Assembly: GCF_008843145.1 (NCBI RefSeq)
Contig: NZ_CP030265.1
Coordinates: 1,037,001 to 1,101,000 of the forward strand
DNA: 64,000 nt
Reading direction: 5' to 3'
Source of the DNA: Skermanella pratensis
GTDB taxonomy: Bacteria > Pseudomonadota > Alphaproteobacteria > Azospirillales > Azospirillaceae
Position 1 is the stretch's first letter; each line of letters opens with the position of its first letter. Made by a program: the position numbers and the translations under genes. Below the pieces are notes generated by a model. That model had not been told where the DNA came from. It saw only the letters and a list, made by a program, of their open reading frames with translations, and did not search any database. Shown here one piece after another: positions 5,218 to 62,431 of this stretch.

Positions 5218-5828
5218 GTGCCCATAGAGCTTTACGACGGCGATCTCCCCGACGACTACGATTTCGGCTCCAGCGTCGCCATCGATACCGAGACCATGGG
5301 GTTGAACCCCGTCCGCGACCGCCTGTGCCTGGTCCAGCTTTCGGCCGGCGACGGCAACTGCCATATGGTGCAGTTCCGCCAGGGTCATTATGACGCGCCC
5401 AACCTGAAGCGGCTGCTGACCGATCCGACAGTCACTAAGCTGTTTCACTTCGCCCGGTTTGACATCGCCGTCCTGCAGGCTTACCTGGGAGTCGTGTGCG
5501 AGCCGGTCTATTGCACCAAGATCGCTTCCAGGCTGGTGCGCACCTTCACCGATCGTCACGGATTGAAGGACCTATGCAAGGACCTGCTGGGCGTGGAGTT
5601 GTCGAAGCAGCAGCAATCCTCGGACTGGGGGCCGCCGACCTGACGCCCGAACAGTTGAAGTACGCCGCCTCCGACGTGCTTCACCTGCACGAACTCCGCG
5701 GCAGGCTGGACGCCATGCTGGAGCGCGAGCGGCGCACCGGCCTCGCAGCCGAATGCTTCCGCTTCCTGCCGACCCGCGCGGCGCTGGATCTCGGCGGCTG
5801 GGCGGACCAGGACATCTTCGCCCATTGA
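5218..5828 (+). CDS. Ribonuclease D-like 3'-5' exonuclease, frame broken near the 3' end
   Basis: DEDD-family exonuclease domain without the C-terminal HRDC domains, about 203 residues when joined. Motif I is AIDTETMGLNP, motif II FHFARFDIAVLQ and motif III YAASDVLHLHEL. As read, the first frame stops at 5643 after SSDWGPPT. The next frame gives GAADLTPEQLKYAASDVLH and continues to 5828. One extra G in the G5 run at 5627-5631 would restore SDWGAADLTPEQ. Without it, motif III with its catalytic Tyr and Asp is lost and the product would be inactive. The start is a GTG at 5218. The family trims RNA 3' ends; stand-alone short forms are common in alphaproteobacteria. The break is probably a homopolymer error. 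Confidence 0.8.
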
Positions 5829-5839
5829 CGGCCGGTGCG

Positions 5840-5858
5840 CGGCCCCGCCGCGGGGCCG
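5840..5858. terminator. Hairpin after the ribonuclease D-like gene
   Basis: CGGCCCCG (5840-5847), loop CCG, then CGGGGCCG (5851-5858), 12 bases past the stop. No T-tract follows, so it may only stabilise the 3' end or act with Rho. Confidence 0.45.
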
Positions 5859-6061
5859 GCGATGCACAGTATCCGGGCAGGGTGTCCCCATCTGCGGCAT
5901 TATAGCGGGCGCGCGGGTTTGACCAGGTTCCGGGCGATGGGCATACTGTCCTCGCCGAAGCCGGGCCGGGCGGGCCGCTTCCGCATCCTGTGGACGTAGT
6001 CCACCCGACGAGTTCTAGACGGGCGGGAATTTGCCCTAACGAAATTGGGAGTTAGCCAGCC

Positions 6062-7075
6062 TTGGACCATTCGACCGACCCCGACAGGACGCTCGCGCAA
6101 TCGGCGCCGGTCGACATGTTGCTCGACGGCGACATCGCGGTGGCGGGACGGGTCCTTCGCCTGGAGGCGGAGGCCCTGATCGACCTCGCGGCGGGTCTGG
6201 ACGCCAGCTTCGGCCGCGCCGTCGGGCTGCTCGGGCGCATCACCGGCCGCGTCGTGGTCACCGGCATGGGCAAGAGCGGACATGTGGCGCGGAAGATCGC
6301 GGCGACGCTCGCCTCCACCGGCACGCCGGCGCTGTGGGTTCATCCCGGCGAGGCGAGCCACGGCGACCTGGGCATGATCGCGAAGGACGATGCGGTTATC
6401 GCGCTGTCCAATTCGGGCGACACCGCCGAGTTGGCCGACATCGTCGCCTATGCCAAGCGATTCCGCATTCCGCTGATCGGCATCACCCGGCGGATCCAGT
6501 CGTCCCTGGCCGAGCAATCCGACGTGGCCCTGATCCTGCCGGCGAGCCCGGAAGCCTGTCCGCTCGGCCTGGCGCCCACCACCTCGACCACCATGATGAT
6601 GGCGCTCGGCGATGCCCTGGCCGTGGCCCTGCTGGAGCGTCGGGGCTTCTCGGCCGCCGACTTCAAGGTGTTCCATCCCGGCGGCCAACTCGGCCGGCAG
6701 CTGCTGCGCGTCACCGAGCTGATGCACAAGGGGGCCGACCTGCCGCTGGCGCCGCTCGACATCCGGGTCTGCGACGCGATCCTGGTGATGACCGCCAAGA
6801 GCTTCGGCTGCGTCGGCCTGACCGGCCCCGATGGCCGGCTGGCCGGGATCATCACCGACGGCGACCTGCGTCGCCACATGAACCCCGACCTGCTGGGCCG
6901 TCCGGCCGCGTCCGTCATGACCGCCGATCCCAAGTCGATCAGGCCCTCGGCACTGGCCGGCGAGGCGCTCGGCATCATGAACGCGATGGCGATCACCAGC
7001 CTGTTCGTCACCGATGACGGCCGCCCGGTCGGCATCATCCATATCCATGACTGCCTGCGGGCCGGTGTGGCCTGA
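6062..7075 (+). CDS. kdsD: Arabinose-5-phosphate isomerase (KpsF/GutQ family)
   Basis: Protein of 337 residues with a SIS sugar-isomerase domain (about residues 45-190; motifs GRVVVTGMGKSGHVARK, LSNSGDTAE, TTSTTMMMALGDALA) followed by two CBS repeats (about 210-335). This is the standard architecture of D-arabinose-5-phosphate isomerase, which converts ribulose 5-phosphate to arabinose 5-phosphate, the first step to Kdo of lipopolysaccharide. It is the first gene of a run that continues with lptC, lptA and lptB, a typical arrangement joining Kdo supply with LPS transport. The start chosen is TTG at 6062 with GGGAG upstream; the first ATG would be at 6116 and would remove 18 residues. The stop is followed closely by lptC. 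Confidence 0.92.
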   Translation: MDHSTDPDRTLAQSAPVDMLLDGDIAVAGRVLRLEAEALIDLAAGLDASFGRAVGLLGRITGRVVVTGMGKSGHVARKIAATLASTGTPALWVHPGEASHGDLGMIAKDDAVIALSNSGDTAELADIVAYAKRFRIPLIGITRRIQSSLAEQSDVALILPASPEACPLGLAPTTSTTMMMALGDALAVALLERRGFSAADFKVFHPGGQLGRQLLRVTELMHKGADLPLAPLDIRVCDAILVMTAKSFGCVGLTGPDGRLAGIITDGDLRRHMNPDLLGRPAASVMTADPKSIRPSALAGEALGIMNAMAITSLFVTDDGRPVGIIHIHDCLRAGVA

Positions 7076-7148
7076 CGCCATGGTTCATTCCACGCCCGGC
7101 AGCCCCGGGGATCCCCGGGGCGGAGACCTCCGGGAGGCTTCCCCCCAA

Positions 7149-7931
7149 ATGGACCGGACCCAGGCGGACCGGACCCAGGCGGACCCTTTGACGGCGCGCA
7201 TGCGCCGGATCGCCCGGGCCGGCGGCGCCTATTCCTTCTTCGTCAGGTTCATGAAGGTGGTGCTTCCGCTGCTCGCCTTCGGCCTGATCGCCCTGCTGGC
7301 GGCGTGGCCCCGCATCCAGGGCGTCGAGCAGTCCGCCCCGCGGCGTGATTCCGGCGAGCTGGAGATGATGCGGGCGCTTTACGTCGGCACCGACAGCCAG
7401 AACCGGCCGTTCTCGGTGACCGCCGACCGGGCCGTGCAGTCGACCAGCGAGCCCGGCGTGCTCGACCTCGTGCGGCCCCAGGCGGAGCTGACCCTCCAGG
7501 ACGGCACCTGGGTGGCCGTGAAGGCGGACCGGGGGCGCTACAACGACCAGACCGGCAAGCTGCTGCTGCTCGGCAACGTCAACCTGTTCCACGACAGGGG
7601 CTACGAGTTCAAGACCGACGAGGCCCATGTGGACGTCAATGCCGGCAATGCCTGGGGCGACCTGCCGGTGACGGGCCAGGGGCCGTTTGGCGAGCTGTTC
7701 GCCCAGGGTTTCCGCCTGTTCGACAGCGGCCAGACCATCGTCTTCACGGGCCATGCGCGGCTCAACCTGGCGCCCGGCCTGTCCGGTTCCAGCGCGCTGC
7801 CGGGCGCGGGCGCCTCCATCGCCGCTCCCCCGCCCGCGGGGGCGGGCGACCCGGTCATTCCCGATGCGCCGCCCCGAGTCGTCGAGCGGGCGTCCCAAGA
7901 ACAGTCCATACCGGAGCAGGTCGAGCGATGA
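7149..7931 (+). CDS. lptC: LPS export component LptC
   Basis: About 260 residues. A short cytoplasmic segment and one membrane helix (VVLPLLAFGLIALLAAW) are followed by a periplasmic LptC beta-jellyroll, with blocks such as YVGTDSQNRPFSVTADRAVQ and GNVNLFHDRGYEFKTDEAHVD. LptC bridges the inner-membrane LptBFG ABC complex and periplasmic LptA. The ATG at 7149 has GGGAGG 11 bases upstream; an in-frame ATG at 7080 lacks a ribosome site. The N terminus contains a duplicated DRTQA, encoded by a 15-base tandem repeat (GGACCGGACCCAGGC). The proline- and alanine-rich tail is not conserved. The stop overlaps the lptA start (ATGA). Confidence 0.88.
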   Translation: MDRTQADRTQADPLTARMRRIARAGGAYSFFVRFMKVVLPLLAFGLIALLAAWPRIQGVEQSAPRRDSGELEMMRALYVGTDSQNRPFSVTADRAVQSTSEPGVLDLVRPQAELTLQDGTWVAVKADRGRYNDQTGKLLLLGNVNLFHDRGYEFKTDEAHVDVNAGNAWGDLPVTGQGPFGELFAQGFRLFDSGQTIVFTGHARLNLAPGLSGSSALPGAGASIAAPPPAGAGDPVIPDAPPRVVERASQEQSIPEQVER

Positions 7932-9682: not shown

Positions 9683-11271
9683 ATGGCGCTTACACAACGT
9701 CTCGATCTCAGACAGACCCAGTCACTCGTCATGACCCCGCAGCTGCAGCAGGCGATCAAGCTGCTGCAGCTCTCCAACATGGAACTGTCGGATTATGTCG
9801 ACCGCGAGATCGAGCAGAACCCCCTGCTGGAGCGCGACGAGGCGGAGTTCGGCGGTGACGGCGGCCAGGCCAACGGCGACGGCACCGGAGCGCCGGGCGG
9901 GGGAGGCGAGGGGGGCCGCGAAGGCGGCATCGATCAGGCGGAACCGGCCCCGGCCGTCAACTCCGCCGACCAGAGGCAGCTCGATACCCACGAACTGACC
10001 ACGTCGGACCACATGGCCGGCGGGTCCGACGCGCCGCTCGATACCGACTTCGAAAATGTCTGGACCAACGGCAGCGCCGCCGATGGCGGCTTCGACGGGG
10101 GCGAGGCTTTCGGCGACTGGTCGTCGAAGGGCGGCGGCAGCAGCTTCGAGGACGGCGACTACAACCTCGAGCAGACGCTGAGCGGCGAGACCAGCCTGCG
10201 CGACCACCTGATCGGCCAACTCAACGTCGACATCGCCGATCCGGTGGACCGGCTGATCGGGCTGGCCCTGGTCGATATGCTCGACGCCGCCGGCTACGTG
10301 ACGGGCGACCTGGACGCGCTCGCCGAGCAGTTGAACTGCGAGCTTTCCCGGATCGAGGCGGTCCTGCGTCGGGTGCAACGGTTCGACCCGCCCGGCGTCT
10401 TCGCCCGCAGCCTGAAGGAATGCCTGGAGATCCAGCTGCGCGAGCGCAACCACCTGGACCCGGCGATGCAGGCGATGCTGGACAACCTGGAATTGCTGGC
10501 CGCGCGGAACGTCTCGGCACTGCTGAAGGTCTGCGGCGTGGATGCAGAGGACCTGTCCGACATGGTGGCGGAGATCAGGACGCTCGATCCAAAGCCGGCC
10601 CTGCGCTTCGACCACCAGGTGGTGCAGACGGTCACGCCCGACATCCTGATGAGGTTGCAGCCGGGGGGCGGCTGGCTGATCGAGTTGAATACCGAGACCC
10701 TGCCGCGGGTGCTGATCAACCAGCGCTATTTCGCTCAGGTCAGCGGGGAGGTGCGCAACAAGGCCGAGAAGGAGTACATTTCCGAGCGTTTCAATTCCGC
10801 GAACTGGCTGGTGAAATCCCTGCACCAGCGCGCCAACACGATCCTGAAGGTTGCAACCGAAATCGTCCGGCAGCAGGACCTCTTCTTCGTCAAGGGCGTT
10901 CAGTATCTGCGCCCCTTGATCCTGCGCGACATCGCCGAGGCGATCGGCATGCACGAGTCGACCGTCAGCCGGGTGACGACGAACAAGTTCATGGCGACCC
11001 CGCGCGGCGTTTACGAGTTGAAGTACTTCTTCACTTCATCGATCAACGGGGCCGATGGGGAGGCAGCCCACTCGGCGGAGGCGGTGCGGTTCCGGATCAA
11101 GGCCCTCATCGACGGCGAGCCCCGGAAGGCATTCTTTCCGACGACCGGATCGTCGAGATTCTCAAATCGGATGGGATCGACATTGCGCGCCGCACGGTGG
11201 CAAAGTATCGTGAGGCCATGCGGATCCCGTCATCGGTCCAGCGCCGCCGCGAAAAGTCCATGAGACTGTGA
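9683..11271 (+). CDS. rpoN: RNA polymerase sigma-54 factor, frame broken near the 3' end
   Basis: Region I is the Q-rich activator-interacting segment (LTQRLDLRQTQSLVMTPQLQ), followed by an acidic, glycine-rich region II. The core-binding domain has PLLERDEAEF and GVFARSLKECLEIQL blocks, and the helix-turn-helix includes HESTVSRVTTNKFMATPRG. As read, the frame derails after ALIDGEP and ends at 11263. In the next frame the conserved tail PEGILSDDRIVEILKSDGID and the RpoN box ARRTVAKYRE continue to a stop at 11271. One extra C in the C4 run at 11120-11123 restores GEPPEGILSDD. The RpoN box is needed to recognise the -24 element, so the uncorrected product would be defective. The start is ATG 9683. 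The hpf and ptsN neighbours are typical. Confidence 0.92.
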
Positions 11272-16775: not shown

Positions 16776-17234
16776 ATGGTACTCGCACTGGTGTTGCACA
16801 GCCTGGCCGCCGCGGTCTGGGTCGGCGGCATGTTCTTCGCCTACATGGCGCTGCGGCCCGCCGCCGGCGCGCTGGAACCGCCCCAGCGGCTGACCTTGTG
16901 GCGGGGGACGTTCGACCGCTTCTTCCCCTGGGTCTGGGCATCGGTGGCGGCCCTGCTGGTCAGCGGCTACGCCATGATCTTCCTGCATTTCGGCGGGTTC
17001 GCCGGAGTGGGGCTGCATGTCCACGTGATGCACGGCATCGGGCTGGTCATGATGGCCCTGTTCGCCCACCTGTTCTTCGCCCCCTGGAAACGCCTGCGCC
17101 GCGCCGTCGATGCCGGAAACTGGGCGGAGGGCGGGAGCAACCTCGCCCAGATCCGCCGGATCGTCGGGATCAACCTGATCCTGGGGCTGGTGACCGTGGC
17201 GATCGGGGCCAGCGGGCGGTACTGGCCGATGTGA
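16776..17234 (+). CDS. CopD-like integral membrane protein
   Basis: 152 residues with four predicted membrane helices: LALVLHSLAAAVWVGGMFFA, PWVWASVAALLVSGYAMI, HGIGLVMMALFAHLFFA and GINLILGLVTVAIGA. Conserved histidines sit at helix ends. It resembles short CopD-family (copper resistance/DUF) proteins. AAGGAA lies nine bases before ATG 16776. It may be the last gene of the hisG operon, since only 19 bases separate it from the phosphatase. Substrate unknown. Confidence 0.75.
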   Translation: MVLALVLHSLAAAVWVGGMFFAYMALRPAAGALEPPQRLTLWRGTFDRFFPWVWASVAALLVSGYAMIFLHFGGFAGVGLHVHVMHGIGLVMMALFAHLFFAPWKRLRRAVDAGNWAEGGSNLAQIRRIVGINLILGLVTVAIGASGRYWPM

Positions 17235-22166: not shown

Positions 22167-23887
22167 TCACGCCTGCCAGGGCAGGACGCCCGGCGGCAGG
22201 CGGCGGGCCAGCAGGGAGGCGGCCAGCATGATCGCCAGGATGGCCGCGACGGAGATCACCGAGACGGCGGCCGCCAGCACCGTGCTGCCGCTCTCCTCCA
22301 GCGAATAGACCACGACCCCCAGCGTCTCCGCCCCCGACGACCACAGCAGGATCGAGACCGTCAGTTCATTGAACGAGGTCAGGAACACCAGGATGCCCCC
22401 GGCCGCAGCCACCGGGGCCGCCATCGGCACGATCACGGTCCGCAGGCGGTGGATCAGGCCGGCGCCGCACATCTGTGCCGCCTCCTCCATCGCCGGCTCC
22501 AGGGTATGGAATCCGGCGATCACCGGCCGGAGCGCCAGCGACAGGAAGCGCGCCAGATAGGCCACCAGGATGATCCAGACCGTTCCGTACAGGGTCGCGT
22601 CGAGCAGCGGCAGCGGGCGGATGAACACCAGGATCGTCGCGATGGCGAGCACCACGCCGGGCAGGGCATAGGGCAGTTCCGCCAGCAGGTTCAGCACCCG
22701 GAGCACCCGGCTCCGGCGCCAGACGACGAAATATGCCAGCGGGACGGCGACGCAGACCAACGCCGCCGACGCTCCCCCCGCCAGCAGGATCGAGTTGCGG
22801 AACGCCCTGCTGGTCGCGTCGTGGACCAGCAGCACATGCAGGTAGTTCGCCAGGGTCACGGACGCGGCGTCGAGCGGCGCCCCGTAGACGCGCACCAGCG
22901 ACGTGGCGACGAGCGCCGCCAGAGGCACCACCACGATCATCGCGATCACCAGCCAGCATGCCGCCTCGACCGCCGGGCGCAGGGTGCCGAGCCGGTAGTC
23001 GAGCGGCCGGGCCGAAGCGCCGGCGGTGCGGACGTCGCGCCGGCTCAGCAGCCAGCCCTGGAGCGCCACCCCGGCGAAGGCGATCAGGCCGACCAGCACC
23101 GACAGCACCGCGACGTCGGACAGCACCGCCGGCCCGAATCCGGCCAGCCTCTGGTAGATCAGCGTCGGCAGCACGGTGATCCCCGCCGGGATGCCCAGCA
23201 GGGCGGGGATGCCGAAATTCCCGATGGAGGACACGAAGGCCAGGGCCGAGCCCGCGATCAGCGACGGGGCCGCCAGCGGCAGCACCACGGTCGCCAGCAC
23301 CCGCCAGCGGCCGGCTCCCGCCGCCTGGGCGGCCTCGACCAGTTCGCGCGGGATCGCCCTCAATCCGGCACGCAGGGCCAGGAACACCAGGGCCGACTGC
23401 TCGATGCCCATCAGCAGGATGATGCCGCCCCTGCCGTAGAGCGGGTTCGGCGTGCCGGGCGGCGGTGCCATGCCCAGGGTCTTCAGCAGGGCGCTCGACG
23501 GGCCGAACAGGTGGATCCAGGACAGCGCCGTGATCTGCGGCGGGATCATCAGCGGCAGCATGAAGCAGAACACGAGGACCGGCTTGCGGCGCAGGTCGGT
23601 CAGCCCGACCAGCAGCGCGAAGGCTCCGCCCAGGGCCACCGCCAGCGCGGTCGCCCCAGGCTGAGGGTCAGGCTGTTGCCGGTCGCCCTCCAGGTCGCGG
23701 GAGATGACATCACGCGGGTCAGGATATCGGCCGCTTCGCCGCCGCGCGGCGCCAGCGCCTCCGCGACGAGGCGGGCCATGGGAAGCACCGACACGACGCC
23801 GACCAGGAGCGTCAGCACCGCCAGCATCACGGCGTCCGGCCGCAGCATCCGGCGGCCGGGCAACTCCTGAGCGGATCGGACGGCCAT
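22167..23887 (-). CDS. ABC transporter permease, FbpB-like, frame broken near the 5' end
   Basis: Two fused permease modules with about 12 membrane helices (about 573 residues joined), as in FbpB-type ferric importers. The gene starts at ATG 23887 (MAVRSAQELPGRR), overlapping the binding-protein stop, and reads to NSLTLSLGRPRWRW before derailing. The next frame gives ALAVALGGAFALLVGLTDL and continues to 22167. One extra G (C on the plus strand, run 23654-23657) restores SLTLSLGATALAVALGG. Both modules carry EAA-type cytoplasmic loops (RELVEAAQAAGAGRWRVL; MEEAAQMCGAGLIHRLRTV). The frame break is probably a homopolymer error. Confidence 0.87.
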
Positions 23888-26795: not shown

Positions 26796-29203
26796 TTATT
26801 CGGCCGCCAGCGGGACCGAGGCGCCCTGGATGGCGCGCCAGACCCGTTCCGGCGTCGCCGGCATGTCGATATGTCCGATGCCCAGATCGGCCAGCGCGTC
26901 CACCACGGCGTTCATGACCGTGGCGCTGCCGCCGATCGCACCCGCCTCGCCGCAGCCCTTGACCCCCAGGGGGTTGTGGGTGCACGGCGCCTCCTCGTGG
27001 TACTGCACGATGAAGCTCGGGACATCGTCCGCCCGGGGCATGCAGTAATCCATGTAGGAGCCGGTCAGGAGCTGACCAGTGTCCGGATCATAAACGCAGT
27101 TTTCCAGCAGGGCCTGGCCGATGCCCTGGACGATGCCGCCATGGACCTGGCCCTCGACCACCATCGGGTTGATCACCCGGCCGAAATCGTCCACCGCCAC
27201 GAACTTCTCGATCCTGACGACGCCGGTCTCCGGGTCGATCTCGACTTCGGCGATCTGGGTCCCGTTGGGATATGTGAAGTTCTTCGGATCGTAGAAGGCC
27301 TGCTCGTCCAGCCCGGGCTCCAGCTCGTCGAGCGGGAAATTATGCGGCACATAGGCCGACAGGGCCACGTCGCCGATGCCGAGGCTCCGGTCGGTGCCGG
27401 CCACGGTGAAGCGGCCCCGGTCGAAGACGATGTCGGTCTCCGCCGCCTCCAGCATGTGCGCCGCGATCTTCTTCGCCTTGTTGACGACCTTGTCCATCGC
27501 CTTGACGATGGCCGAGCCGCCGACCGCCAGCGACCGGGAGCCGTAGGTGCCCATTCCGAACGGCACCTTCGAGGTGTCGCCATGGACGATCTCGACGTTC
27601 TCGATCGGGATGCCGAAGCGGTCGGAGACGAGCTGCGCGAAGGTTGTCTCGTGGCTCTGCCCGTGGCTGTGGGAGCCGGTGAAGACGGTCACCGAACCGG
27701 TGGGATGGAAGCGCACCTCGCCGGACTCGTACAGCCCCGCGCGGGCTCCCAGGGCGCCCGCCACATTGCTGGGCGCGATGCCGCAGGCCTCGATGTAGCT
27801 GGCGAGGCCGATGCCCCGCAGCTTGCCCCGGGCCTTCGCCTCCGCCTTGCGGGCCGGGAAGCCCTTGTAGTCGATCAGCTCAAGCGCCTGGTCCAGGTTC
27901 TTCTCGAACAACCCGCAATCGTACTGCAACGCGACCGGCGTGTCGTACGGCATGGCTGATGGCGGGATGAAGTTGCGCCGCCGCAGCTCGGTCTTGTCGA
28001 TGCCCATCTCGCGCGCCGCGTTCTCGACGATGCGCTCGATCAGGTAGCAGGCCTCCGGCCGCCCGGCGCCGCGATAGGCGTCCACCGGCACGGTGTGGGT
28101 GAACACCGCCTTGACCTCGGCATAGATCGCCGGGGTCGAGTACTGCCCGGCCAGCAGGGTCGCGTACAGGTATGTCGGGATGGACGGCGCGAAGGTGGAC
28201 AGGTACGCCCCCATGTTCGCCAGCGTTCGGACCCGCAGCCCCAGGAACTTGCCGTCCGCGTCCAGCGCCAGCTCCGCGTGGGTGACGTGGTCGCGCCCGT
28301 GGGCGTCGGACACGAAGCTTTCCGACCGCTCCGCCACCCACTTGATCGGGCGCCCGATCTTCCGCGACGCCCAGGTGACGATCGCCTCCTCGGCATAGTG
28401 GTAGATCTTGGAGCCGAAGCCGCCGCCGACATCCGGGGCGATGACCCGCAGCTTGTGCTCGGAATGCCCAGCACGAAGGCGCCCATCAGCAGTCGGATGA
28501 CGTGCGGGTTCTGGCTGGTCGTCCACAGGGTGTAGTCGCCGGTGGCGCGGTCGTACTCGCCGATCGCCGCCCGGGGCTCCATCGCGTTGGGCACCAGCCG
28601 GTTGTTGATCAGGTCCAGCTTGGTGACATGGGCGGCCTTGGCGAAGGCGGCGTCGGTCGCTGCCTTGTCGCCCAGGTGCCAGTCGTAGCAGACGTTGCCG
28701 GCGGCCTGCTCGTGGACCAGGGGCGCACCGTCCCTGAGCGCGGCGGGAGAGGTGGTGACGGCCGGAAGCTCGTCGTAGTCCACCATGATCAGCTCGGCGG
28801 CGTCCTTGGCCTGGTCCCGGCTCTCGGCGATCACCACCGCGACTTGGTCGCCGACATGGACGACCTTGTCCAGCACCAGCGGCGGATGCGGCGGCTCGAC
28901 CATCGGGCTGCCGTCCTTGGAATGGATCAGCCAGCCGCAGGGCAGGCCGTTGACCTTGTCGGCCGCGATGTCCTGCCCGGTGAAGACCGCGACGACGCCG
29001 GGCGCCGCCAGCGCCGCCGAGGTGTCGATGCCCTTGATCCGCGCGTGGGCATAGGGCGAGCGCAGGATATAGGCGTGGGTCTGGTTCGGCCGGTTGATGT
29101 CGTCGGTATAGGTCCCCTGGCCGGTCAGGAAGCGGAAGTCCTCGCGGCGCCTGACGGAGGCGCCGATGCCGGTGACGTTGCCGGTGGCGGGAGAGTTCGA
29201 CAT
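26796..29203 (-). CDS. coxL: Form II CO-dehydrogenase-like molybdenum subunit, frame broken
   Basis: About 802 residues when joined. The start is ATG 29203 ([12 protein letters not shown]) with GGAAGGGG upstream. The active-site loop reads [26 protein letters not shown] is the form II signature, not the AYRCSFR of proven CO dehydrogenases. Molybdopterin motifs such as [17 protein letters not shown] and [16 protein letters not shown] are present, with Glu in the C-terminal GCGEAGAIG. As read, the frame breaks at about 28460 after FVLGIP; one extra base restores [20 protein letters not shown]. Form II enzymes may oxidise other substrates. Electrons go to coxS and then coxM. Confidence 0.9.
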
Positions 29204-29219
29204 GGTTGCTGCCCCTTCC

Positions 29220-29713
<494 letters not shown>

Positions 29714-36691: not shown

Positions 36692-36794
36692 GCCGACACC
36701 GCGGCCGGAGCGTTGGAGCGGGACATCGACGTTCGGCCCTGGCGGGCGAAAAGCGGTCCATGGAGCTGGCGGGTCCGGCCTGACTGGACACCCT

Positions 36795-37963
36795 TTATTT
36801 GGCTGCCATTCCCCTGAGGGAATCCCTGAAACGCCGAACATCATCAGCGATCTCCCGCAGAGCCGGTTCAGCCGCGGAGCCGAAGCGGGCGAGGAGATCG
36901 TCGTAGGCGGCGAGTGCGTCCTTGCTGCGTCCGAGTTGGCCGAGGGTGAAGCCCTTGTTATAGAGCGCCAGGGCGACCGGTTCGCGCAGCGCCGGCTCGG
37001 CCGCGGAACCGAAGCGGGCGAGGAGATCGTTGTAGACGGTGAGTTCGTCCTGGCCGCGTCCGAGTTTGCCGAGGGTGACACCCTTGCCGAAGAGAGCTCC
37101 TGCAACTTGGGCGAGGTGATCCGGATGCTGCGATGTTCCCGGTCTGTCAGCGACTTCCGTAAAGGCGCCCATCGCCTCGTCCAGCTTTCCCAAATGGATT
37201 TGACATATCCCCCAATGGTTCTTTGCCTCGGCCCATTCCTGGTCGGAACTGGATGCATCAATCGCTTTTTCGTTGCAGAACAATGCTCTCGCGTAATCGG
37301 GAGTGCCTGCGCTCATGAGGCTCTTTGCCTCGTTGATCCAATAGTCGAATGTGGGCTCGACGGTGGGGAACGACCCGCGCTAAAAATTGACGACGCCGTT
37401 TCAGTGACTGGGTCGAGCATCGAAGATCCGCGTGCCGTCTTGTGATGATCCCGAAGCCAGCTTGCCAGATGGACTTCGAGAGCATCAATGAAGTCAGCGC
37501 TTTGGCTGTACTGCCGAAACAGGTATCGTTTGTCGTCTTCGATCCACCTCTTGAAGTCCAGAACCGCCTTCAACTGTGGCCCCGGATCGTTCCGCCGGCT
37601 TTGGTCCACGTCCTTGAAGAAGAGCGCAATGTTGTAGATCTTGGCAGCCCGGTACAGCTCCTCCGCAAGCGCGAATTCCTCCTCGGTGCCCGAGCTGAAG
37701 GTCGGCCCGGTTGGCGATCCCCAGCGGTCATGAAGCACGAACACGGCGTAGTCGCACTGTTTGAGGTCCTCGTTGATCAATTCCTGCGGGCGCCCGACGC
37801 CGGCGGTCGTATCTTCCCATCCGACGGGATGGAACATGACGTCATGAGGTCCGGCATGCACGATCGAATACCGGTCGAGCAATTGTTTAAAGCTCTTGCG
37901 CTCCTCTTCCAATCCACCGGGCGACCCGATGAAGACGCGGTACTGGGTGATCGATCTTGGCAC
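36795..37963 (-). CDS. DUF4062-TPR protein, frame broken in the middle
   Basis: About 390 residues when joined, from GTG 37963. Residues 1-165 are a DUF4062 domain (YRVFIGSPGGLEEERKSFKQ, YAVFVLHDRWGSPTG, EEEFALAEELY). The first frame runs on to TASSIFSAGRS and then degenerates. The other frame, read upstream of the internal ATG at 37316, gives VEPTFDYWINEAKSLMSAG and continues into TPR repeats with two near-identical copies of DLLARFGSAAEPALRE. One extra C (plus-strand G run 37365-37368) joins them as GRSPTVEPTFDYW. DUF4062 often occurs with TPR or NTPase modules in immunity-like proteins. GC is clearly lower than in flanking genes. Function unknown. Confidence 0.75.
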
Positions 37964-38196
37964 CGCGCTATCCTTGCCCTATGCCGGTATTCACTTCGTC
38001 GTGGGTTTTCCGTTGACGGCCGTGGGCCAGCAGGATAGCCAAGAAGGATCGCAGGTGGAACAGCGATCTACCCCTTAAGATATGGGAAGCCGAGGGGCGG
38101 CTGGACCGACTGCCCCAGGACCGTCCCATGCCATTCTTTCAGCGGGGCAGGAGAGGATCTCCCGGGGCGTGCATCCGGGGATACGTTGCGTCGATC
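37964..38196. other. Non-coding stretch upstream of the DUF4062-TPR gene
   Basis: About 230 bases without a credible gene. It carries the minus-strand promoter region of the DUF4062-TPR gene and ends where the receiver-domain relic begins. I see no clear repeat or hairpin. Confidence 0.4.
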
Positions 38197-38285
38197 ACCG
38201 CCAACCGCCAACCGCCTGCCCGAAGTCCAGAAGGGAGGTCGACGCCAGCGGCTTTCAACTCCTCGGCAAGCCGGTCACCCCGTCC
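38197..38285 (+). pseudogene. Relic of a receiver-domain 3' end (paralogue of the hybrid kinase)
   Basis: About 90 bases align with the last part of the hybrid kinase gene (36465-36545). Both read GCCTGCCCGA, then a GTCCAG stretch, then GACGCCAGCGGCTTT/AACGCCAGCGGCTTC and CAACTCCTC-AAGCCGGT. The implied protein ITANRLPEVQ...ASGFQLLGKPV matches the kinase receiver C terminus with substitutions typical of a paralogue (LLGKPVTP versus LLNKPVKP). A 7-base tandem duplication (ACCGCCA) and a one-base insertion destroy the frame, and no start region remains. Confidence 0.65.
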
Positions 38286-38445
38286 CGTCGTCCGGCATCA
38301 TCCCCGTCCGCAGATACTCGTATGCCCGCCACCGCTCGTCGTGCGGCATCCGGGCGCGGCGCAGCGGTTCGGCTTCGACGAACAGCATGCGGCGGCGGAG
38401 GCCAGGGGGCTTTCGACCAGCAGGATCGGCTTCTCCCAGCTCCAT
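38275..38445 (-). CDS. Small ORF downstream of the chemoreceptor gene
   Basis: 56 residues: MELGEADPAGRKPPGLRRRM, then LFVEAEPLRRARMPHDERWR, then AYEYLRTGMMPDDGTG. It starts at ATG 38445 with a strong CCGGAGGATCC ribosome site seven to eight bases upstream and lies 34 bases after the chemoreceptor stop, on the same strand. The good ribosome site and spacing argue for a real gene. I recognise no family. Its 3' end overlaps the receiver-domain relic, so the C terminus may be recent. Confidence 0.55.
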   Translation of the reverse strand: MELGEADPAGRKPPGLRRRMLFVEAEPLRRARMPHDERWRAYEYLRTGMMPDDGTG

Positions 38446-41116: not shown

Positions 41117-44613
<3,497 letters not shown>

Positions 44614-51473: not shown

Positions 51474-51476
51474 AAC

Positions 51477-52227: not shown

Positions 52228-52310
52228 GGGACGCCCAACCGCGCGAGACGTTCCGGCTTCCGGCCCATCAGTAGGCGCGGGTTCGACTGCCGCCAGGAAG
52301 CGGTTCCCCT

Positions 52311-55300
52311 TTATCGAAGGCGGTAGCGCAAGCCCGCCGATACCCGATGCGCCGACGAGCCGTCGCGCAGCTCGACATCGTAGCCGGCGAAGCCTTCCAG
52401 GCTGTTTTCCAGATATGCGACGAACCCCATGCCCAACACGGCGGCGTCGCGGCCGGCTTCGGTGCCCGACACCTGGAATGGAGCCCCCGCCAGCGAGACC
52501 CGGCTATCGGCGGCCCGGTCCAGGAAATCATGGTCCCAGCGGACCCTGACCTCCGGTTCGGCCACCAAGCCGCCGAGTTCGTAACGTTTGGCCGCGCGGA
52601 CGCCGAGACCGGTCCTGACCGTGTCCATGGTCATGTCGGCGACGGCGAGCCCCAGGGACTGGGCGCCGGATTCGGAAAAGGCGTTCCGGGTGATCCGGTC
52701 GTAGCGCACGGAAGCCGCGGGTTCCACGATCGCGCCCTGTGTCCGCCATGTGTATCCGACGGCCAGGGCCGCGCCGAAGCCGTGTCCTCGGCTCGAACCA
52801 TCGGCAGTCCGGTCCACGGTGCCGAAACGGATCGGCCGGCGGCTGTCGTAGTCTGAGAACGAGTAGGTCAGCGAGCCGTCGGCGAAAAGGTTGCCGGCCG
52901 AATAGGATCCGTAGGCGGCCGTCGCGTAGCTGTCGATGCCGGTGCTTCCGCCGTCCCTCCGCGCGTCCACATCCGTCCGGAAATAGCCGAAGGCCACCCC
53001 CAGATCGAAGTTGGGCGCCATCTTGCCGTCGAGGCCGAACGCGAAGCCGCCGGTCGTGGAATCGAAGCCGGCCGCGTTGCCGTCGCCGGACGTGTCGGCG
53101 AATCGTGCCACGGCGCGGCCCCAGACGGTCGGCATCGTGGGATCGCTCATGGATCCGCCGTTTGCCGATCCGCCGTCCGCCGGTCCATTCCCGGACGGTG
53201 TCGTGGCCCCGGCGGTCCCGGCGTCGGTCGCTCCCAGCGAGAAGGATGTCAGGGGCCCCACCGCCTTGCCGGCCGAGCCGCGGCGGACGGCCGCCGTCCG
53301 GTCGGCGAGCAACTCGCCGAACAGGCGCCCGGTGCCGAGCGTCGCCGTCACCGCATCCGCGTGCATGACGCCCGCCAGTTGATCGAGCGCGGCGGGGATC
53401 GCCGCCGGCGCCGTGAGATAGAGCGAGTTGAACAGGGTGTCCCGATCCGTGCCGCTGCGTGTTCCAGCCGCCGGGCGCAGCGACTCGACCGTGTCCGCCG
53501 CCGCCCCCTGATTGGCGGTCAGACCGTCCAGCGACGCGTAGGACGCCGGCGCTACCGCCAGTAACAATCTGTCCGTCCCATATGAGACGTCGAACCGCGT
53601 GCCGGCCGGCAAGCCCGTCGTCGGCTGGGTCAGGCCGGAGAAACCGCCCAGGATGCCGCCCGTGGCGCCGACGATATCGAAACCCTGGCCCAGGGCGGGT
53701 GTGTATCCGGAAGCCTCGGCCTCGGCGAATCCCCGGGTAACGGGGACGAGCGTACCCGAAGCCGTGAAGCCGCCGGGGATTCCGGTCACCTCGATCCGGT
53801 CGTGAAAGCCATCGCCGCTGCCCGCCGTCGGTCCATCCACCTCGATCCGCAGCGCCGCCGAATCGCCCATGTTGATGATCGCGCCGTCAACCTTCAGCAC
53901 TCCCGGCGAATTGCCGGGAGACAGCGTTCCCGTGTTGACCACCGTCCCGGAAACGGTCCCGTCGCCGCCGAGGGTGCCGCCGTTCAGGAGGGGCGACTGC
54001 GCCTGAAGCCGGGAATTGACGGTCAGCGTCGCGCCGGGCCGGGTGACGACCGTGCCGAAGGACTGGTTGCCGGCTTCCAGGGCCAGCGTCGCCAAGGTGC
54101 CCTGGCTCGATCCGACCACCAGGGATCCGCTTCCGTCGATGTCGCCCGTCACGCTGCCGGCGGCTCCGAGAAACACGGCGGTGTCGTCGGCGCCTAGACC
54201 GGCGATGCCGGACGTGAGGGCCTGGCCGTTGAAGATCACCGTATCGGGTCCGCCGGTCAGGATCGCCCCGGTCGCCAGGTTGAGACGCAGGGCGGTGCCC
54301 GAATTGCCGACATTGAGGACCAGTCCGCGGAACCGTTCGGGCTCCGCCACGTCCACCGTCGAGAAGCGGCCGGTGATCCCGCCGGTCGCGGTGATCACAT
54401 CATAGGACGTTCCGGTGGAGTAGGACCCCTCCTGGGGCAGGATCCGCAGGGTGCCGCCGTCGAGCGCCACGGAACTGGCGACCGCGAGACGGTCGGCCTG
54501 GGCAGGGTGGATCTTCGCCGCGAAGGTCGAGCCGCTCTCGAACGTCACCGGACCGATCGCGGACAGCGTGCCGATGGAGGCGCCGGAGTCGCCCGGCGCG
54601 ATGGTGCCGCCCACGGCCACGGCGCCGACGGTCCCGGTTCCCGCCAGCGTCGCGCCGCTCGACACCGTCGCGGCACTTCCGGCAAGGCTGCCGGTGACGT
54701 TCAGCACGCCGTCCAGGACGGCGGTGGTCCCGGTCATGCCGTTGGCAGCCGACAGGGTCAACATGCCCGTGCCCCGCTTCGTCAGAGTGCCGGAACCGGT
54801 CAGCGCGTCGCTGAAATCGAGCGCGTCCGACCGGTCGAAGACCACGTCGCCGCTCAGGCCGGGGAGCAGGACGGCGGAGTACCAGGAAATGCCTTCATAG
54901 GCGTAGCCGTTCTTCGAGAAGCCTTCCGTCAGATCCGGCGTATAGAGGTGGTCGCCAAGTGCCGCCGAGTGGAATCGGTAGATCGGCCCGGCGCCCGCGG
55001 TCGGCTGGCCGATCGCGCTGAAGACCGTGCCTTGGTCGGCATATCCGCTGCCGGTCTGCCGCAAGCGGGAGATTTCCGCGGCGTCGGCCGTATAGATGTG
55101 GTCGGTCCCGGCCGCCGAATGGAATTCCCGGACACCGACCAGGGCGCTGTGGTTCGGCTCGTTGGAGAAGGGAACGCCCTGCTCGACGTAGCCCTGCGCG
55201 ATCAGGGACCGGGCCTGCTTGGTGCTTGCCGTGTAGATCGTGTCGGCGGTGACGGGGTGATGCAGCCGGAACACCACCGGAAGTCCGTCGGCGGCGTCGT

Positions 55301-56552
55301 AGCCGCCCACCGCCTGGGCGGCATGGCTCACCGTGCCCTGTCCGTCCAGCTTGACATCGATGGCGATGGTCTGCGGCCGCGCGGGCTTGGTGTAGAGGAT
55401 TCCCGGCGTGGGAGTGGTGCCGGGGCCGCCGGGAGTATAGATGTCACTGTAGCCGGTGACCGCCGCGGTCGGCAGGACGACGTTGACGAGGCTCCGAACG
55501 GCGGCTTCGTCACCGCTCAGGATGATGTCGATGAAATTGTCGTGGTCTTCCCGATAGTAGGGGCCATAGACGCTGGTGGTGCTGTTGGCCGGCGGTCCCA
55601 GTTCGGCCAAGCCCAGCACCTTCAGCGACCCGATGCCGGGACCGAGGTCGTAGGTCACGCCGTCACGGTCGATGACCACGGTCTGCCCGCCGGCGTTCCT
55701 GGCCTCCAGCCGGAAATAGCGGGCGAATTCGGTCGGCAGCTTGCCGCTGACCCCGTCCGGGGAGAACCCGCCGGAGGTGAGCAGCCGGAGCCGGTAGACG
55801 GCATTGCCCGGGTAAAGGGAGGCGCCGTCGTTCCGCAGGTTGCCGCCCAGCGAAGCGGGCGCGAAATCGCCGACCGACGAGAACCTGGTCAACCGGGCGC
55901 CGAGCATGGCGGGACCGGCCACGTAGGGATTGCGGCTTGCGGCCGTCAGGCCGACGGCGGATTGGGGCCCGTTCGGCCCGATCACCTTAAGCGGAGTGTC
56001 GTCCGCGACGATCTCGACCGAAACCGGATAGACCGCCCCTGGGGTCCCCGGGGCGAGCCGGTTGCCGAACTGGCCGAACACGACGATCACATTCCGTTCG
56101 TTGTAATCGTAGTTCGGATTGAGAGCCGCCGCCAACGGCGTCACCACCTGCCCGGTATTGAGCCGGATGGCGATGTCGGTCGGCGACACGGTGCTCGGCA
56201 GCAGCGGCCAGCCGAACACGACGGGCAAGGCGTCGGCCTGGACGACCGTCGCCCCGTAGCCGCCCGCCGGGAGGCCGGCGACGGGGACGGCGGAGGTGAG
56301 ATTGCGCAGCGGGGGCGCCGGGGAGAGCGTGGCGAGGTTGCCGTTCACGCCAGCTCCCGCCGCGACGGCACGATTGAGATCGGCGGCGGACGTCAGGCCG
56401 GGAATGCCGACGATACCCTCGAATCCGAAATCGGCGGATAGAATTCTCGATGTTTCCGACCAGAGATCGCTGTTGATGACGATGTCTCGTCTTAGTTCGA
56501 CATAGGCTGGAAACTGGTAGGGCACTTCATCCATTTGTGGCGCCATGTCCAT
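52311..56552 (-). CDS. Autotransporter-like protein with DUF5648-type repeats; no visible signal peptide
   Basis: 1413 residues. The N-terminal 400 residues are unfamiliar and start MDMAPQMDEVPYQFPAYVEL with no signal peptide; an in-frame stop lies 15 codons upstream. Residues about 405-580 hold three lectin-like repeats (FRLHHPVTADTIYTAS, REFHSAAGTDHIYTAD, YRFHSAALGDHLYTPD) as in DUF5648. A beta-helical passenger with autotransporter-associated repeats follows (SGTLTKRGTGMLTLSAANGM), then a C-terminal autotransporter beta-barrel (about 1140-1413; TVWGRAVARFADTSGDGN, AAYGSYSAGNLFADGSLTYS). The barrel ends YRLR instead of the usual aromatic residue. It would be surface-exposed if exported; export is unproven. 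Confidence 0.8.
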   Translation of the reverse strand: MDMAPQMDEVPYQFPAYVELRRDIVINSDLWSETSRILSADFGFEGIVGIPGLTSAADLNRAVAAGAGVNGNLATLSPAPPLRNLTSAVPVAGLPAGGYGATVVQADALPVVFGWPLLPSTVSPTDIAIRLNTGQVVTPLAAALNPNYDYNERNVIVVFGQFGNRLAPGTPGAVYPVSVEIVADDTPLKVIGPNGPQSAVGLTAASRNPYVAGPAMLGARLTRFSSVGDFAPASLGGNLRNDGASLYPGNAVYRLRLLTSGGFSPDGVSGKLPTEFARYFRLEARNAGGQTVVIDRDGVTYDLGPGIGSLKVLGLAELGPPANSTTSVYGPYYREDHDNFIDIILSGDEAAVRSLVNVVLPTAAVTGYSDIYTPGGPGTTPTPGILYTKPARPQTIAIDVKLDGQGTVSHAAQAVGGYDAADGLPVVFRLHHPVTADTIYTASTKQARSLIAQGYVEQGVPFSNEPNHSALVGVREFHSAAGTDHIYTADAAEISRLRQTGSGYADQGTVFSAIGQPTAGAGPIYRFHSAALGDHLYTPDLTEGFSKNGYAYEGISWYSAVLLPGLSGDVVFDRSDALDFSDALTGSGTLTKRGTGMLTLSAANGMTGTTAVLDGVLNVTGSLAGSAATVSSGATLAGTGTVGAVAVGGTIAPGDSGASIGTLSAIGPVTFESGSTFAAKIHPAQADRLAVASSVALDGGTLRILPQEGSYSTGTSYDVITATGGITGRFSTVDVAEPERFRGLVLNVGNSGTALRLNLATGAILTGGPDTVIFNGQALTSGIAGLGADDTAVFLGAAGSVTGDIDGSGSLVVGSSQGTLATLALEAGNQSFGTVVTRPGATLTVNSRLQAQSPLLNGGTLGGDGTVSGTVVNTGTLSPGNSPGVLKVDGAIINMGDSAALRIEVDGPTAGSGDGFHDRIEVTGIPGGFTASGTLVPVTRGFAEAEASGYTPALGQGFDIVGATGGILGGFSGLTQPTTGLPAGTRFDVSYGTDRLLLAVAPASYASLDGLTANQGAAADTVESLRPAAGTRSGTDRDTLFNSLYLTAPAAIPAALDQLAGVMHADAVTATLGTGRLFGELLADRTAAVRRGSAGKAVGPLTSFSLGATDAGTAGATTPSGNGPADGGSANGGSMSDPTMPTVWGRAVARFADTSGDGNAAGFDSTTGGFAFGLDGKMAPNFDLGVAFGYFRTDVDARRDGGSTGIDSYATAAYGSYSAGNLFADGSLTYSFSDYDSRRPIRFGTVDRTADGSSRGHGFGAALAVGYTWRTQGAIVEPAASVRYDRITRNAFSESGAQSLGLAVADMTMDTVRTGLGVRAAKRYELGGLVAEPEVRVRWDHDFLDRAADSRVSLAGAPFQVSGTEAGRDAAVLGMGFVAYLENSLEGFAGYDVELRDGSSAHRVSAGLRYRLR

Positions 56553-56759
56553 CTGGGATCGGTCGATGAACGATCCACGGCGTACTGTCCGTGCCGCTCA
56601 GGTCATGGATCGATTGCTCTCACCTGGATGGTACGATGGTTTTCTCATTGGGAGTACCCCAAAGAAACGATCAGGCCATGTCCGCGAACGCTATCGGCCG
56701 AGCCCGTCGCCCGGTTCTACGGCAGGGTGAGCCCGTCCCGGCGCGTCGGGCGTCCCCCG

Positions 56760-58751
56760 TCAGACGTCGATGTCCTGGACGAACCGGGCGTTCTCCTGGA
56801 TGTACTGGAAGCGCAGCTCGGGCTTCCGGCCCATCAGGCTCTCGACCAGCGACTTGGTCTGCTCCACCTGCCCGCGCATCTCCGGGTCATGGGTGTCCGG
56901 CACCACGACCCGGAGCAGGGTGCGCTTGACCGGGTCCATGGTGGTTTCCTTGAGCTGCGCCGGCTGCATCTCGCCCAGGCCCTTGAAGCGGCTCAGCTCC
57001 ACCTTCTTGCCGGCGAAGACGGTCTTGACCAGCTCGTCCTTGTGGGCGTCGTCGCGCGCGTATACCGACTTGCCGCCGTGGGTCACGCGGTAGAGCGGCG
57101 GCAGGGCCAGGTACAGGTGGCCGTTCTGGATCAGGCCGGGCATCTCGCGGTAGAAGAAGGTCATCAGCAGCGATGCGATGTGGGCGCCGTCCACATCGGC
57201 GTCGGTCATGATGATGACGCGCTCGTAACGAAGCTTCTCCGACGAGAAGTCGCGGCCGACGCCGCAGCCCAGCGCCTGGATCAGGTCGCTCAGCTCCTGG
57301 TTGGCCCGCATCTTGTCGGCGCTGGCGCTCGCCACGTTCAGGATCTTGCCCCGCAGCGGCAGGATCGCCTGGGTCTCGCGGATTCGCGCCTGCTTGGCCG
57401 AGCCGCCCGCCGAGTCGCCCTCGACCAGGAAGATCTCCGTGCCGTCCGGCGTGTTGCGGCTGCAGTCGGCCAGCTTGCCCGGCAGGCGGAGCTTGCGGGT
57501 CGCGGTCTTGCGCGACATCTCCTTGGCCTGACGCTTGCGCTGCCGCTCCTCCGCCTTGTCGATCAGGTGGTCGAGCAGCAGGTTGCTCGCCGCCGGATCG
57601 GCCGACAGCCAGTGGTCGAAATGGTCCTTGACCGCCAGCTCGACCAGCCGCGCCGCCTCGGCGGTTGCCAGCTTCTCCTTGGTCTGGCCCTGGAAGGACG
57701 GGTCGCGGATGAACACCGACAGCAGGATGGTGGCCCCGCCGAACACGTCGTCCGCCGTGACCTGCGCCGCCCGCTTGTTGCCGACCAGATCGCCGAAGGA
57801 CTTCAATCCGCGGGTCAGCGCCGCTCGAAGCCCCATCTCGTGGCTGCCGCCCTGGGGCGTCGGCACCGTGTTGCAGTAGGAATGGATGAAGCCTTCCTCG
57901 TCCTCCGGCCAGGCGATCGCCCATTCCGCCCGCCCGGCGTCGCCGGGGAACGGCACCTCGCGCGCGAACGGGGCGGGAGTCAGGGCCTTGCGGTCCTTGA
58001 GCGCGGCGGTCAGGTAGTCGTTCAGGCCGCCGGGGAAATGCAGCGTCTCCGCCGCCGGGGTCACCGCGTCGGGACCCAGCAACTCCGGGTCGCAGGCCCA
58101 GCGGATCTCGACGCCCTTGTAGAGATAGGCCTTCGACCGCGCCATGCGGTACAGCCGCTCCGGCTTGAAGGCGGCGCCCTCGCCGAAGATCAGCGCGTCG
58201 GGATGGAACTTGATGGTGGTGCCGCGCCGGTTGTGGACGGCGCCCAGGCTCACCAGGTCGCCCACCGCCAGCCCGCGGCTGTAGCTCTGCGTGAAGAGCT
58301 GGCGGTCGCGGGCGATCTCCACCGTCAGCCGGTCGGACAGGGCGTTGACGACCGACAATCCCACGCCGTGCAAACCACCGGAGGTTGCATAGGCCTTGCC
58401 GCTGAACTTGCCGCCGGAGTGCAGCGTCGTCATGATGACTTCGAGCGCGGATTTCCCCGGGTATTTGGGGTGTTCGTCGATCGGGATGCCGCGGCCGTTG
58501 TCGCGGATCGTGACGGTCGCATCGGACGCCAGCTCCAAATCGATGCGGCTGGCATGGCCGGCCACGGCCTCGTCCATGGCGTTGTCCAGGATCTCGGCCA
58601 CGAGGTGATGCAATGCCCGTTCGTCGGTGCCGCCGATATACATGCCGGGGCGTCGTCGCACCGGTTCCAGCCCTTCCAGGACCTCGATGTCCTGGGCGGA
58701 GTAGCTGTCTTCCTTGCGCACGGTGTTTTGAAATAGATCGCTCATGGCCAT
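56760..58751 (-). CDS. parE: DNA topoisomerase IV subunit B
   Basis: 663 residues, the usual ParE length. The GHKL ATPase domain has ILDNAMDEAVAG, DNGRGIPIDEHPKY and GGLHGVGLSVVNALS. The TOPRIM domain has EGDSAGGSAKQAR and TDADVDGAHIASLLM. The C-terminal block GLGEMQPAQLKETTMDP distinguishes ParE from GyrB, as does the QEN..FVQDIDV tail. With ParC (not here) it decatenates daughter chromosomes. The start is ATG 58751; it is divergent from the thioesterase gene. Confidence 0.94.
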   Translation of the reverse strand: MAMSDLFQNTVRKEDSYSAQDIEVLEGLEPVRRRPGMYIGGTDERALHHLVAEILDNAMDEAVAGHASRIDLELASDATVTIRDNGRGIPIDEHPKYPGKSALEVIMTTLHSGGKFSGKAYATSGGLHGVGLSVVNALSDRLTVEIARDRQLFTQSYSRGLAVGDLVSLGAVHNRRGTTIKFHPDALIFGEGAAFKPERLYRMARSKAYLYKGVEIRWACDPELLGPDAVTPAAETLHFPGGLNDYLTAALKDRKALTPAPFAREVPFPGDAGRAEWAIAWPEDEEGFIHSYCNTVPTPQGGSHEMGLRAALTRGLKSFGDLVGNKRAAQVTADDVFGGATILLSVFIRDPSFQGQTKEKLATAEAARLVELAVKDHFDHWLSADPAASNLLLDHLIDKAEERQRKRQAKEMSRKTATRKLRLPGKLADCSRNTPDGTEIFLVEGDSAGGSAKQARIRETQAILPLRGKILNVASASADKMRANQELSDLIQALGCGVGRDFSSEKLRYERVIIMTDADVDGAHIASLLMTFFYREMPGLIQNGHLYLALPPLYRVTHGGKSVYARDDAHKDELVKTVFAGKKVELSRFKGLGEMQPAQLKETTMDPVKRTLLRVVVPDTHDPEMRGQVEQTKSLVESLMGRKPELRFQYIQENARFVQDIDV

Positions 58752-59285: not shown

Positions 59286-59315
59286 GGGATCTCCCCCGGG
59301 ACTTCGGGCGGAGTC

Positions 59316-60207: not shown

Positions 60208-60228
60208 GCTGGATTTCCGGCCTGCCGG

Positions 60229-60696
60229 TCAGTCCGGAGCCCGACTCGGCCGCGTCAGGATATAGGCCGCAACGGCGGTGATGATGGCGAAATGGACAGT
60301 CGGCAGGACCCAGTCGGTCGCGACATACAGGACCACCAGGACAAGGCTGCCATACATTCCTATGACCGAAAGCACCTTGCCGGTCACCGGGATCACGCCG
60401 TGCCTGTTCCAGGCGACCAGCGGCGGACCGAATTGGGGATGCTCATAAAGCCAGCGGTGGAACCGCTCGGAACTGCGGGAGAAGGCCCACGCGGCGATGA
60501 TCAGGAAGGGCGCCGTCGGCATCACCGGCAGGAAGACCCCCAGGGTGCCCAGGGCGACCATCACGAAGCCGAGCGCCATCAGGCAATGGCGGACCACCGG
60601 GTTGGCCGGCGCGTGGCGGAACGTTTCGCTCGCGGTCCCGGCGGGTGGGGTCCCGTCGTCGCTTGGGGAGGGCGGCGCGTGGAGGTCGGCCTTCAT
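60229..60696 (-). CDS. DUF454 (YbaN-like) membrane protein
   Basis: 155 residues. DUF454 hallmarks are present: LGFVMVALGTLGVFLPVMPT, PTAPFLIIAAWAFSRSSERF and a YEHPQFGPPLVAW block, with helices GKVLSVIGMYGSLVLVVLYVA and FAIITAVAAYIL following. Inner-membrane protein of unknown function, common in proteobacteria. ATG 60696. Confidence 0.88.
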   Translation of the reverse strand: MKADLHAPPSPSDDGTPPAGTASETFRHAPANPVVRHCLMALGFVMVALGTLGVFLPVMPTAPFLIIAAWAFSRSSERFHRWLYEHPQFGPPLVAWNRHGVIPVTGKVLSVIGMYGSLVLVVLYVATDWVLPTVHFAIITAVAAYILTRPSRAPD

Positions 60697-60797
60697 GATG
60701 TCCTGGGGATCGGGTGAACCAGGGGCGTCCCAGCCATTTAGGTGTGGAACGCTCCAATACCATCTCCGCCGCTGCCGCCGCTACCTCGCCCGGCCGC

Positions 60798-62431
60798 TCA
60801 CTCCGCTGCGGTGGGCAGGCGATAGTCCTTGAACTGCTCGCGCAGCTTCGTCTTCAAAAGCTTGCCGGTGGCGGTGTGGGGAAGCTCCTCGACGAAGACG
60901 ATGTCGTCGGGCAGCCACCATTTCGCGATCTTGCCTTCGAAGAACGCCAGCAGGCTTTCCCGCGTCAGGCCGCTGCCGGACCGGGGGATCACCACCAGCA
61001 GCGGGCGCTCGTCCCACTTGGGATGGGCGATGCCGATCGCCGCCGCTTCGACCACGTCCGGGTGGGCGACCGCCGTGTTCTCCAGGTCGATCGAGCTGAT
61101 CCACTCGCCGCCCGACTTGATCACGTCCTTGCTGCGGTCGGTGATCTGCATGTAGCCGTCGGCGTCGATGGTGGCGACATCGCCGGTCGAGAACCAGCCT
61201 TCGTCGTCATGGGCCGATGGCGTCGCCTCCTTGAAATAGCGGGCGCAGACCCACGGCCCGGCCACCTTCAAGTGGCCGAAGGCCACGCCGTCGTGGGGCA
61301 GGGGCTTGCCCTCGTCGTCGGCGATCTTCATGCGGATGCCGAACAGGGGACGGCCCTGCTTCGCCCTGATCGCCATCCTTTCGTCGTCGGAACGAGTCTC
61401 CATGCCGGGCTTAAGCCGCGAGACGGAGCCGATCGGCGAGGTCTCGGTCATGCCCCAGGCATGCAGCAGCTCGACCCCGAACTCGTCCTGGAAGGTCTCG
61501 ATCATGGCGCGTGGCGCCGCCGACCCGCCGACCACCGTCCGCTTCAGCGTGCTGAACGTCTTGCCATTCTCCTGCATGTAGCGGATCAGCCCGGCCCAGA
61601 TCGTCGGCACGCCGGCGCTGACCGTCACGCCGCCCAGCTCTATCAGCTCGTGCAGGCTGGCGCCGTCCATCCTGGCGCCCGGGAACACCAGCTTCGCTCC
61701 GGTCATGGGAGAGGCGTAGGGGAGCCCCCAGGCGTTGACGTGGAACATCGGCACGACCGGCATCACCGCGTCGTGCGAGGACAGGTTCAGCGCGTCGGGC
61801 AGGGCAACCGCGTAGCTGTGCAGCACGGTCGAACGGTGACTGTAGAGCACGCCCTTGGGATTGCCGGTGGTGCCCGACGTGTAGCAGAGCGACGAGGCGG
61901 TCCACTCGTCGAACCGGGGCCACTCGTACTGGTCCGAATGGCCGCGCACCAGCGTCTCGTAGCAGAGCAGGTTCGGCAGCTTCGACTCGGGCATGTGGTC
62001 CCGGTCGGTCATCACCACGATGCCCTTCACGCCCGTCAGCCGCTCCGCGATCCCTTCGAGGAGCGGCACGAAGGTCAGGTCCACGAACAGGTAGGAATCT
62101 TCCGCGTGGTTGATGATGTAGGAGATCTGCGGCGGGAACAGGCGCGGATTGATCGTGTGGCAGATCGCCCCATGCCGGAGGTGGCGTAGTAGATCTCGAA
62201 ATGCCGGTACCCGTTCCAGGCCACCGTGCCGATCCGGTCGCCCGGCTGGACCCCCAGCGCGATCAGGGCGTTGGCCAGTTGCCGCGCGCGCTTGGCGGCC
62301 TCGGCATAGGTATAGGTGTGGATCGGCCCTTCGACCGTGCGCGAAACGATCTCCGTCGTGCCGTGGTATTCCTCCGCGAAATCGATCAGCGAAGAAATCA
62401 GCAGCGGCTTGTCCATCATGAGTCCGCGCAT
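60798..62431 (-). CDS. AMP-dependent acyl-CoA synthetase, frame broken near the 5' end
   Basis: About 545 residues when joined, from ATG 62431 with GGAGG nine bases upstream. The P-loop is [17 protein letters not shown], then [32 protein letters not shown] and the C-terminal Lys in [15 protein letters not shown]. As read, the first frame ([20 protein letters not shown], then [11 protein letters not shown]) fails at the plus-strand C run 62168-62171. One extra base restores [14 protein letters not shown] and joins [15 protein letters not shown]. This is a medium/long-chain fatty acid-CoA ligase class; the exact chain length is not clear. Confidence 0.88.

Follow-up and report, generated by a model that had tools for sequence, protein, structure and literature searches.

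The window analysed here is a stretch of 64,000 nucleotides in which the reading frame breaks at eight loci (Table 1). It covers bases 1,037,001-1,101,000 of a single contig of 5,869,433 bases with a completeness of 99.83%. The window is very probably part of the chromosome of Skermanella pratensis W17, a strain with a reported genome of 5.87 Mbp under accession CP030365 (PMC11767975). The W17 assembly consists of one contig. Strains TT6, M1 and 8-14-6 have 4-6 plasmids with a total of 1.4-1.7 Mb (PMC11767975). Plasmids may be missing from the W17 record or from the strain itself.

Table 1. Loci with a break in reading frame in the window (coordinates are window positions)
Feature	Coordinates	Strand	Break	Remarks
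Ribonuclease D-like 3'-5' exonuclease (rnd)	5218..5828	+	5627-5631	Frames 5218-5631 and 5628-5825; intact relative 203 aa
rpoN (sigma-54)	9731..11271	+	11120-11123	Break within DNA-binding domain; tblastn frames
ABC transporter permease	22167..23863	-	23654-23657	PhnU2-like, below the cut-off of that model
Molybdopterin-binding large subunit ("coxL")	26796..29203	-	28460-28463	
Small subunit ("coxS")	29222..29713 (low end approximate)	-	29261-29264	Break after residue 151 of 164
DUF4062 and TPR pieces	36795..37963	-	~37366 (frame switch)	Pieces on different frames
metH (cobalamin-dependent methionine synthase)	41117..44613	-	42174-42178	
Acyl-CoA ligase, 3-(methylthio)propionyl-CoA ligase family	60798..62419	-	62168-62171	

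The Pfam domain Sigma54_DBD was spread across both pieces of rpoN. The activation domain of metH was on the second frame, and one Pfam domain of the large molybdopterin subunit crossed the break with a part on each frame. The exonuclease gene matched the rnd model with an E value of 5.4e-28, which is below the curated cut-off of that model. The first-pass annotation had named the molybdenum hydroxylase pair coxL and coxS. An AYRGAGR motif, which we take to be that of form II, was present in the window and the pair looks form-II-like. The name coxL itself was not upheld, as the intact large subunit of a relative scored 708.1 bits against a curated CoxL cut-off of 991.15. The glyceraldehyde dehydrogenase models were tried too, and neither subunit reached their cut-offs. 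A stretch of about 480 bases in the small subunit gene (29219-29697) was repeated elsewhere on the chromosome (G000:C1:2475673-2476152, where G000 is W17) with 96% identity. A 4.5 kb segment at 52258-56764 aligned to neither close relative. It contained an ORF on the minus strand (52311-56597) encoding a large autotransporter with a DUF5648 match and a passenger-repeat match.

The window was compared to two chromosomes of the genus which match those of Skermanella rosea M1 (G001; 6,098,631 bases) and Skermanella mucosa 8-14-6 (G002; 6,407,183 bases). Both were sequenced with NovaSeq and MinION combined (PMC11767975), and because Illumina and Nanopore data were both used they are fair references. 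No statement of the platform used for the W17 chromosome was found in the literature searched, PMC11767975 included. Two further Skermanella genomes (G003 and G004) were used for some sites and for gene searches.

The first-pass annotation had described eight one-base frame breaks, and the sequence context of each was present at its coordinates. Comparison with close relatives, which it had proposed as a check, covered seven sites. At all seven the window was exactly one base short of both M1 and 8-14-6. The rnd and rpoN sites were also covered by G003 and G004, and the coxL and coxS sites by G004. Each of these had one base more than the window. The first-pass annotation had further claimed that one added base restores the family frame in every case. 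This was borne out at six of the seven sites, where the intact protein of the relative was found in two frames meeting at the break. At coxS only residues 1-151 of 164 were recovered, and the 13-residue tail had no second-frame match in the window when the intact protein of the relative was used as query.

The claim that most of the bases were lost from runs of G or C needed refinement. Both relatives had a longer run than the window at coxS, metH and coxL, the last with an adjacent substitution. At the ABC permease and the acyl-CoA ligase only one of them did. At rnd and rpoN the run was interrupted in both relatives, and its shortening in W17 is presumed. The breaks in the window were more than chance would give, as seven of its 47 comparable genes (8-14-6 genes) had a single one-base loss and none of 316 did in the control. 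No further gene with a single loss was found in the window among the genes aligned over at least 90% of their length. Nine more one-base differences were mapped in the window and all were outside called genes in both relatives. A loss and a gain at 17095/17101 formed a pair which kept the frame, and more one-base differences were located near 17.8 kb and at 40.6-40.8 kb.

The eighth site differed from the others. A segment at approximately 36711-38434 had no alignment to M1 or 8-14-6, both of which carry other sequence there. Pfam placed DUF4062 on one piece and TPR on the other, the pieces being on separate frames. Over approximately 17 codons before the first frame ends the codon-position GC signature already favored the TPR frame, with a third-position GC content of 0.76 versus 0.44. 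A one-base loss at this site is plausible but unproven. The two frames overlap as ATGA, and DUF4062 and TPR may possibly be two separate, coupled genes overlapping at this point. Matches to the DUF4062 part were found in eight of 385 genomes sampled from the class, one being W17 itself and seven having 32-38% identity. Matches were also found in 17 plasmid records, all below 60% identity. These homologues are no guide to the frame because they are too distant.

The comparison was extended to a main sample of approximately 460 kb per genome, which included the window and in which genes were called by one rule. Stretches of N were left out, amounting to 7,500, 5,000 and 2,500 bases in the samples of the three genomes. 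The count of gene breaks excluded any gene with under 90% of its length aligned and any indel up to 30 bases from the end of a gene. A single one-base loss was found in W17 in 18 of 311 M1 genes and 19 of 319 8-14-6 genes. Single gains numbered 1 and 0, and other frame breaks 8 and 10, for the M1 and 8-14-6 gene sets respectively. When the relatives themselves were examined as controls, 8-14-6 had one single loss in 324 genes, one single gain and two other breaks, and M1 had no single loss in 316 genes, two single gains and three other breaks. The excess of single losses in W17 over the relatives was significant (Fisher p 2e-5 and 3e-6). Breaks were more frequent in the window (7/47 genes) than elsewhere in the sample (12/272 genes, p 0.012), as may be expected of a window picked for its breaks. 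Two distant stretches (180 kb taken, 139 kb aligned, 8-14-6 only) contained single losses in 3 of 108 genes, two single gains and three other breaks. The three losses and two gains come from a comparison with one relative, and either genome may be the one that changed.

The kind of event was characterized from the lengths of G/C runs which were equal in the other two genomes and kept the same three-base flanks. There were not enough long A/T runs for such a test. Among the runs of five, 4 of 101 were shortened in W17, compared to 0/88 and 0/89 in the relatives. Among those of six it was 3 of 16 in W17 and 0/14 in each relative. For runs of five and six pooled this was 7/117 in W17 versus 0/205 (p 0.0007). 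Runs of four did not differ (2/731 in W17, 2/689 and 1/693 in the relatives). With 1/4725 runs of three shortened, coding and noncoding together, the rate in W17 climbed with run length and exceeded that of the relatives only at five and six. When all frame-broken genes against either relative were considered, multi-gap genes included, 33 distinct coding one-base losses were collected. The longest adjoining run was of G or C in 30 of these. A G/C run of at least three adjoined 22 of the 33 (background 14.6%) and a run of at least four adjoined 18 (random positions 3.5%).

Counted irrespective of genes, the private one-base differences of W17 comprised 69 losses and 35 gains, those of M1 54 and 48, and those of 8-14-6 31 and 24, with the excess being in losses. 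The total of private one- and two-base indels was no help in telling the genomes apart (121 in W17, 121 in M1 and 62 in 8-14-6). In one 1.4 kb patch of the W17 chromosome (G000:C1 approximately 1,224,219-1,225,560) a single base was lost at seven places and two bases at one more. It spans a GGDEF/EAL phosphodiesterase gene and its neighbor, the substitution density is ordinary, and several of the losses are in runs of two or three only. This is probably a poorly polished patch.

Based on these comparisons the frame breaks are, with high confidence, consensus errors of the assembly that left one base out of short G/C runs. The first-pass annotation had likewise favored under-calling over gene decay. 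The breaks were private to W17 at all seven covered sites, almost all genes with a single event had a loss, and G/C runs were preferred with a jump in rate at five and six. Breaks turned up in all sampled parts of the chromosome and hit genes which the cell should require. Such errors occur in long-read assemblies lacking sufficient short-read polishing. A long-read platform presumably produced the W17 sequence, and the DNA of the strain would carry the full runs. Several observations weigh against an error: runs of four are not in excess, 35 private gains occur, the window is rich in breaks, some losses of the 1.4 kb patch are in runs of two or three, the distant stretches have nearly as many single gains as single losses, ispH has a second intact copy and the larger thrS piece scores over its cut-off. 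In the same kind of error profile described for long-read assemblies, false deletions predominate and runs of four to five are the commonest setting (Kastor, PMC12007338). As in W17, run-linked false one-base deletions fragmented genes in that work and were found by comparison with relatives. A/T runs were worst affected there, whereas nearly all are G/C in this genome of approximately 67% GC. The Kastor method also adds reads, while W17 was judged from comparison of assemblies alone.

The functions of the broken genes were examined next to the possibility of real decay. Slippage in runs is a genuine mutation process and makes pseudogenes in recently decaying bacteria, where one-base losses in runs break frames much as in W17. 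Twenty-three broken genes were selected, of which 20 were run against NCBIfam. Matches over the curated cut-off were found for rpoN, metH, glmS, ispH, larB, an amidase, the methylmalonyl-CoA mutase N-terminal domain and 3-(methylthio)propionyl-CoA ligase. Clear matches below the cut-off were found for hisZ, rnd, a CheR methyltransferase and both molybdenum hydroxylase subunits. The only rpoN found in W17 was split and the gene was full length in four relatives. The metH gene was split in W17 and in none of the four relatives, and no other full copy was found in W17.

Both glmS and thrS are expected to be necessary for growth. In W17 glmS was present as just two halves on different frames, both below the cut-off, while each of the four relatives had one match over it. 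The thrS gene of W17 covered model positions 39-564 and 1-37 on different frames and was whole (1-564) in the four relatives. The larger thrS piece was still over the family cut-off. Translation from an internal start could conceivably yield a shorter ThrS, and glmS is therefore the stronger case. Genome searches found no second full copy of glmS, thrS, rpoN or metH in the four relatives, and spare copies could in principle lie on a plasmid absent from the assembly. The ispH gene was considered as a decisive essential gene and dropped, as a second, intact copy was present in all five Skermanella genomes. Each of the five has two ispH loci; those of W17 are at G000:C1:5296203 and 1121382, one of them split.

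Constraint was tested in 19 of the broken genes using one relative per gene. Two multi-loss genes and two genes called only on M1 were left out. Nonsynonymous and synonymous codon changes numbered 161/522 before the break (ratio 0.308), 156/464 after it (0.336) and 4749/11419 in the other aligned genes (0.416). Relaxed constraint downstream of the breaks was not found in these 19 genes, although a very recent loss would look alike. Decay through slippage in G/C runs, too recent to have left other damage, is nevertheless very unlikely. The sole glmS and thrS found are broken, unlike the genes lost in slippage pseudogenes, and constraint is the same. Among the more than 300 genes examined in each of the two relatives, zero or one had a single loss. 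Shortened runs of five and six occurred both in coding sequence (4/86) and outside it (3/31).

A lineage deficient in mismatch repair which gathers one-base indels in runs is even less probable. Such a mutator would produce run-length-dependent indels in one lineage. The mutS and mutL genes of W17 are, however, open and full length, and the single-event gene breaks comprise 18-19 losses versus 0-1 gains. Synonymous divergence was 0.111 and 0.123 per codon in the broken genes, like the 0.110 of other genes.

A third explanation is that the short runs are genuine and that ribosomal or RNA-polymerase slippage restores the frame in the cell. Frame rescue of this kind occurs in some endosymbionts, at long A/T runs. 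The W17 runs at the losses are just 1-6 bases, mostly G/C, and no shared motif beyond the G/C runs was noticed when the contexts were inspected by eye. Rescue by slippage was judged a highly improbable cause. It is just as hard to credit that a few percent of W17 genes, glmS and thrS included, are truly shortened and have their products restored by routine slippage in G/C runs. Programmed frameshifting was rejected as the relatives keep an open frame at the corresponding sites.

Under-calling by the assembly is also supported by the split glmS and thrS, the kept constraint and the intact mutS and mutL. On the best reading the breaks are no biological feature of Skermanella pratensis and their value is as a warning on the W17 genome, which has been used in published genome comparisons (PMC11767975). 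Uncorrected, approximately 3-6% of the genes in this type-strain chromosome appear broken by one base. Counts of broken genes in W17 should not be trusted before they are checked against raw reads. The breaks distort pseudogene counts, gene-content comparisons and pathway calls, including those for methionine, sigma-54 regulation and the molybdenum hydroxylases.
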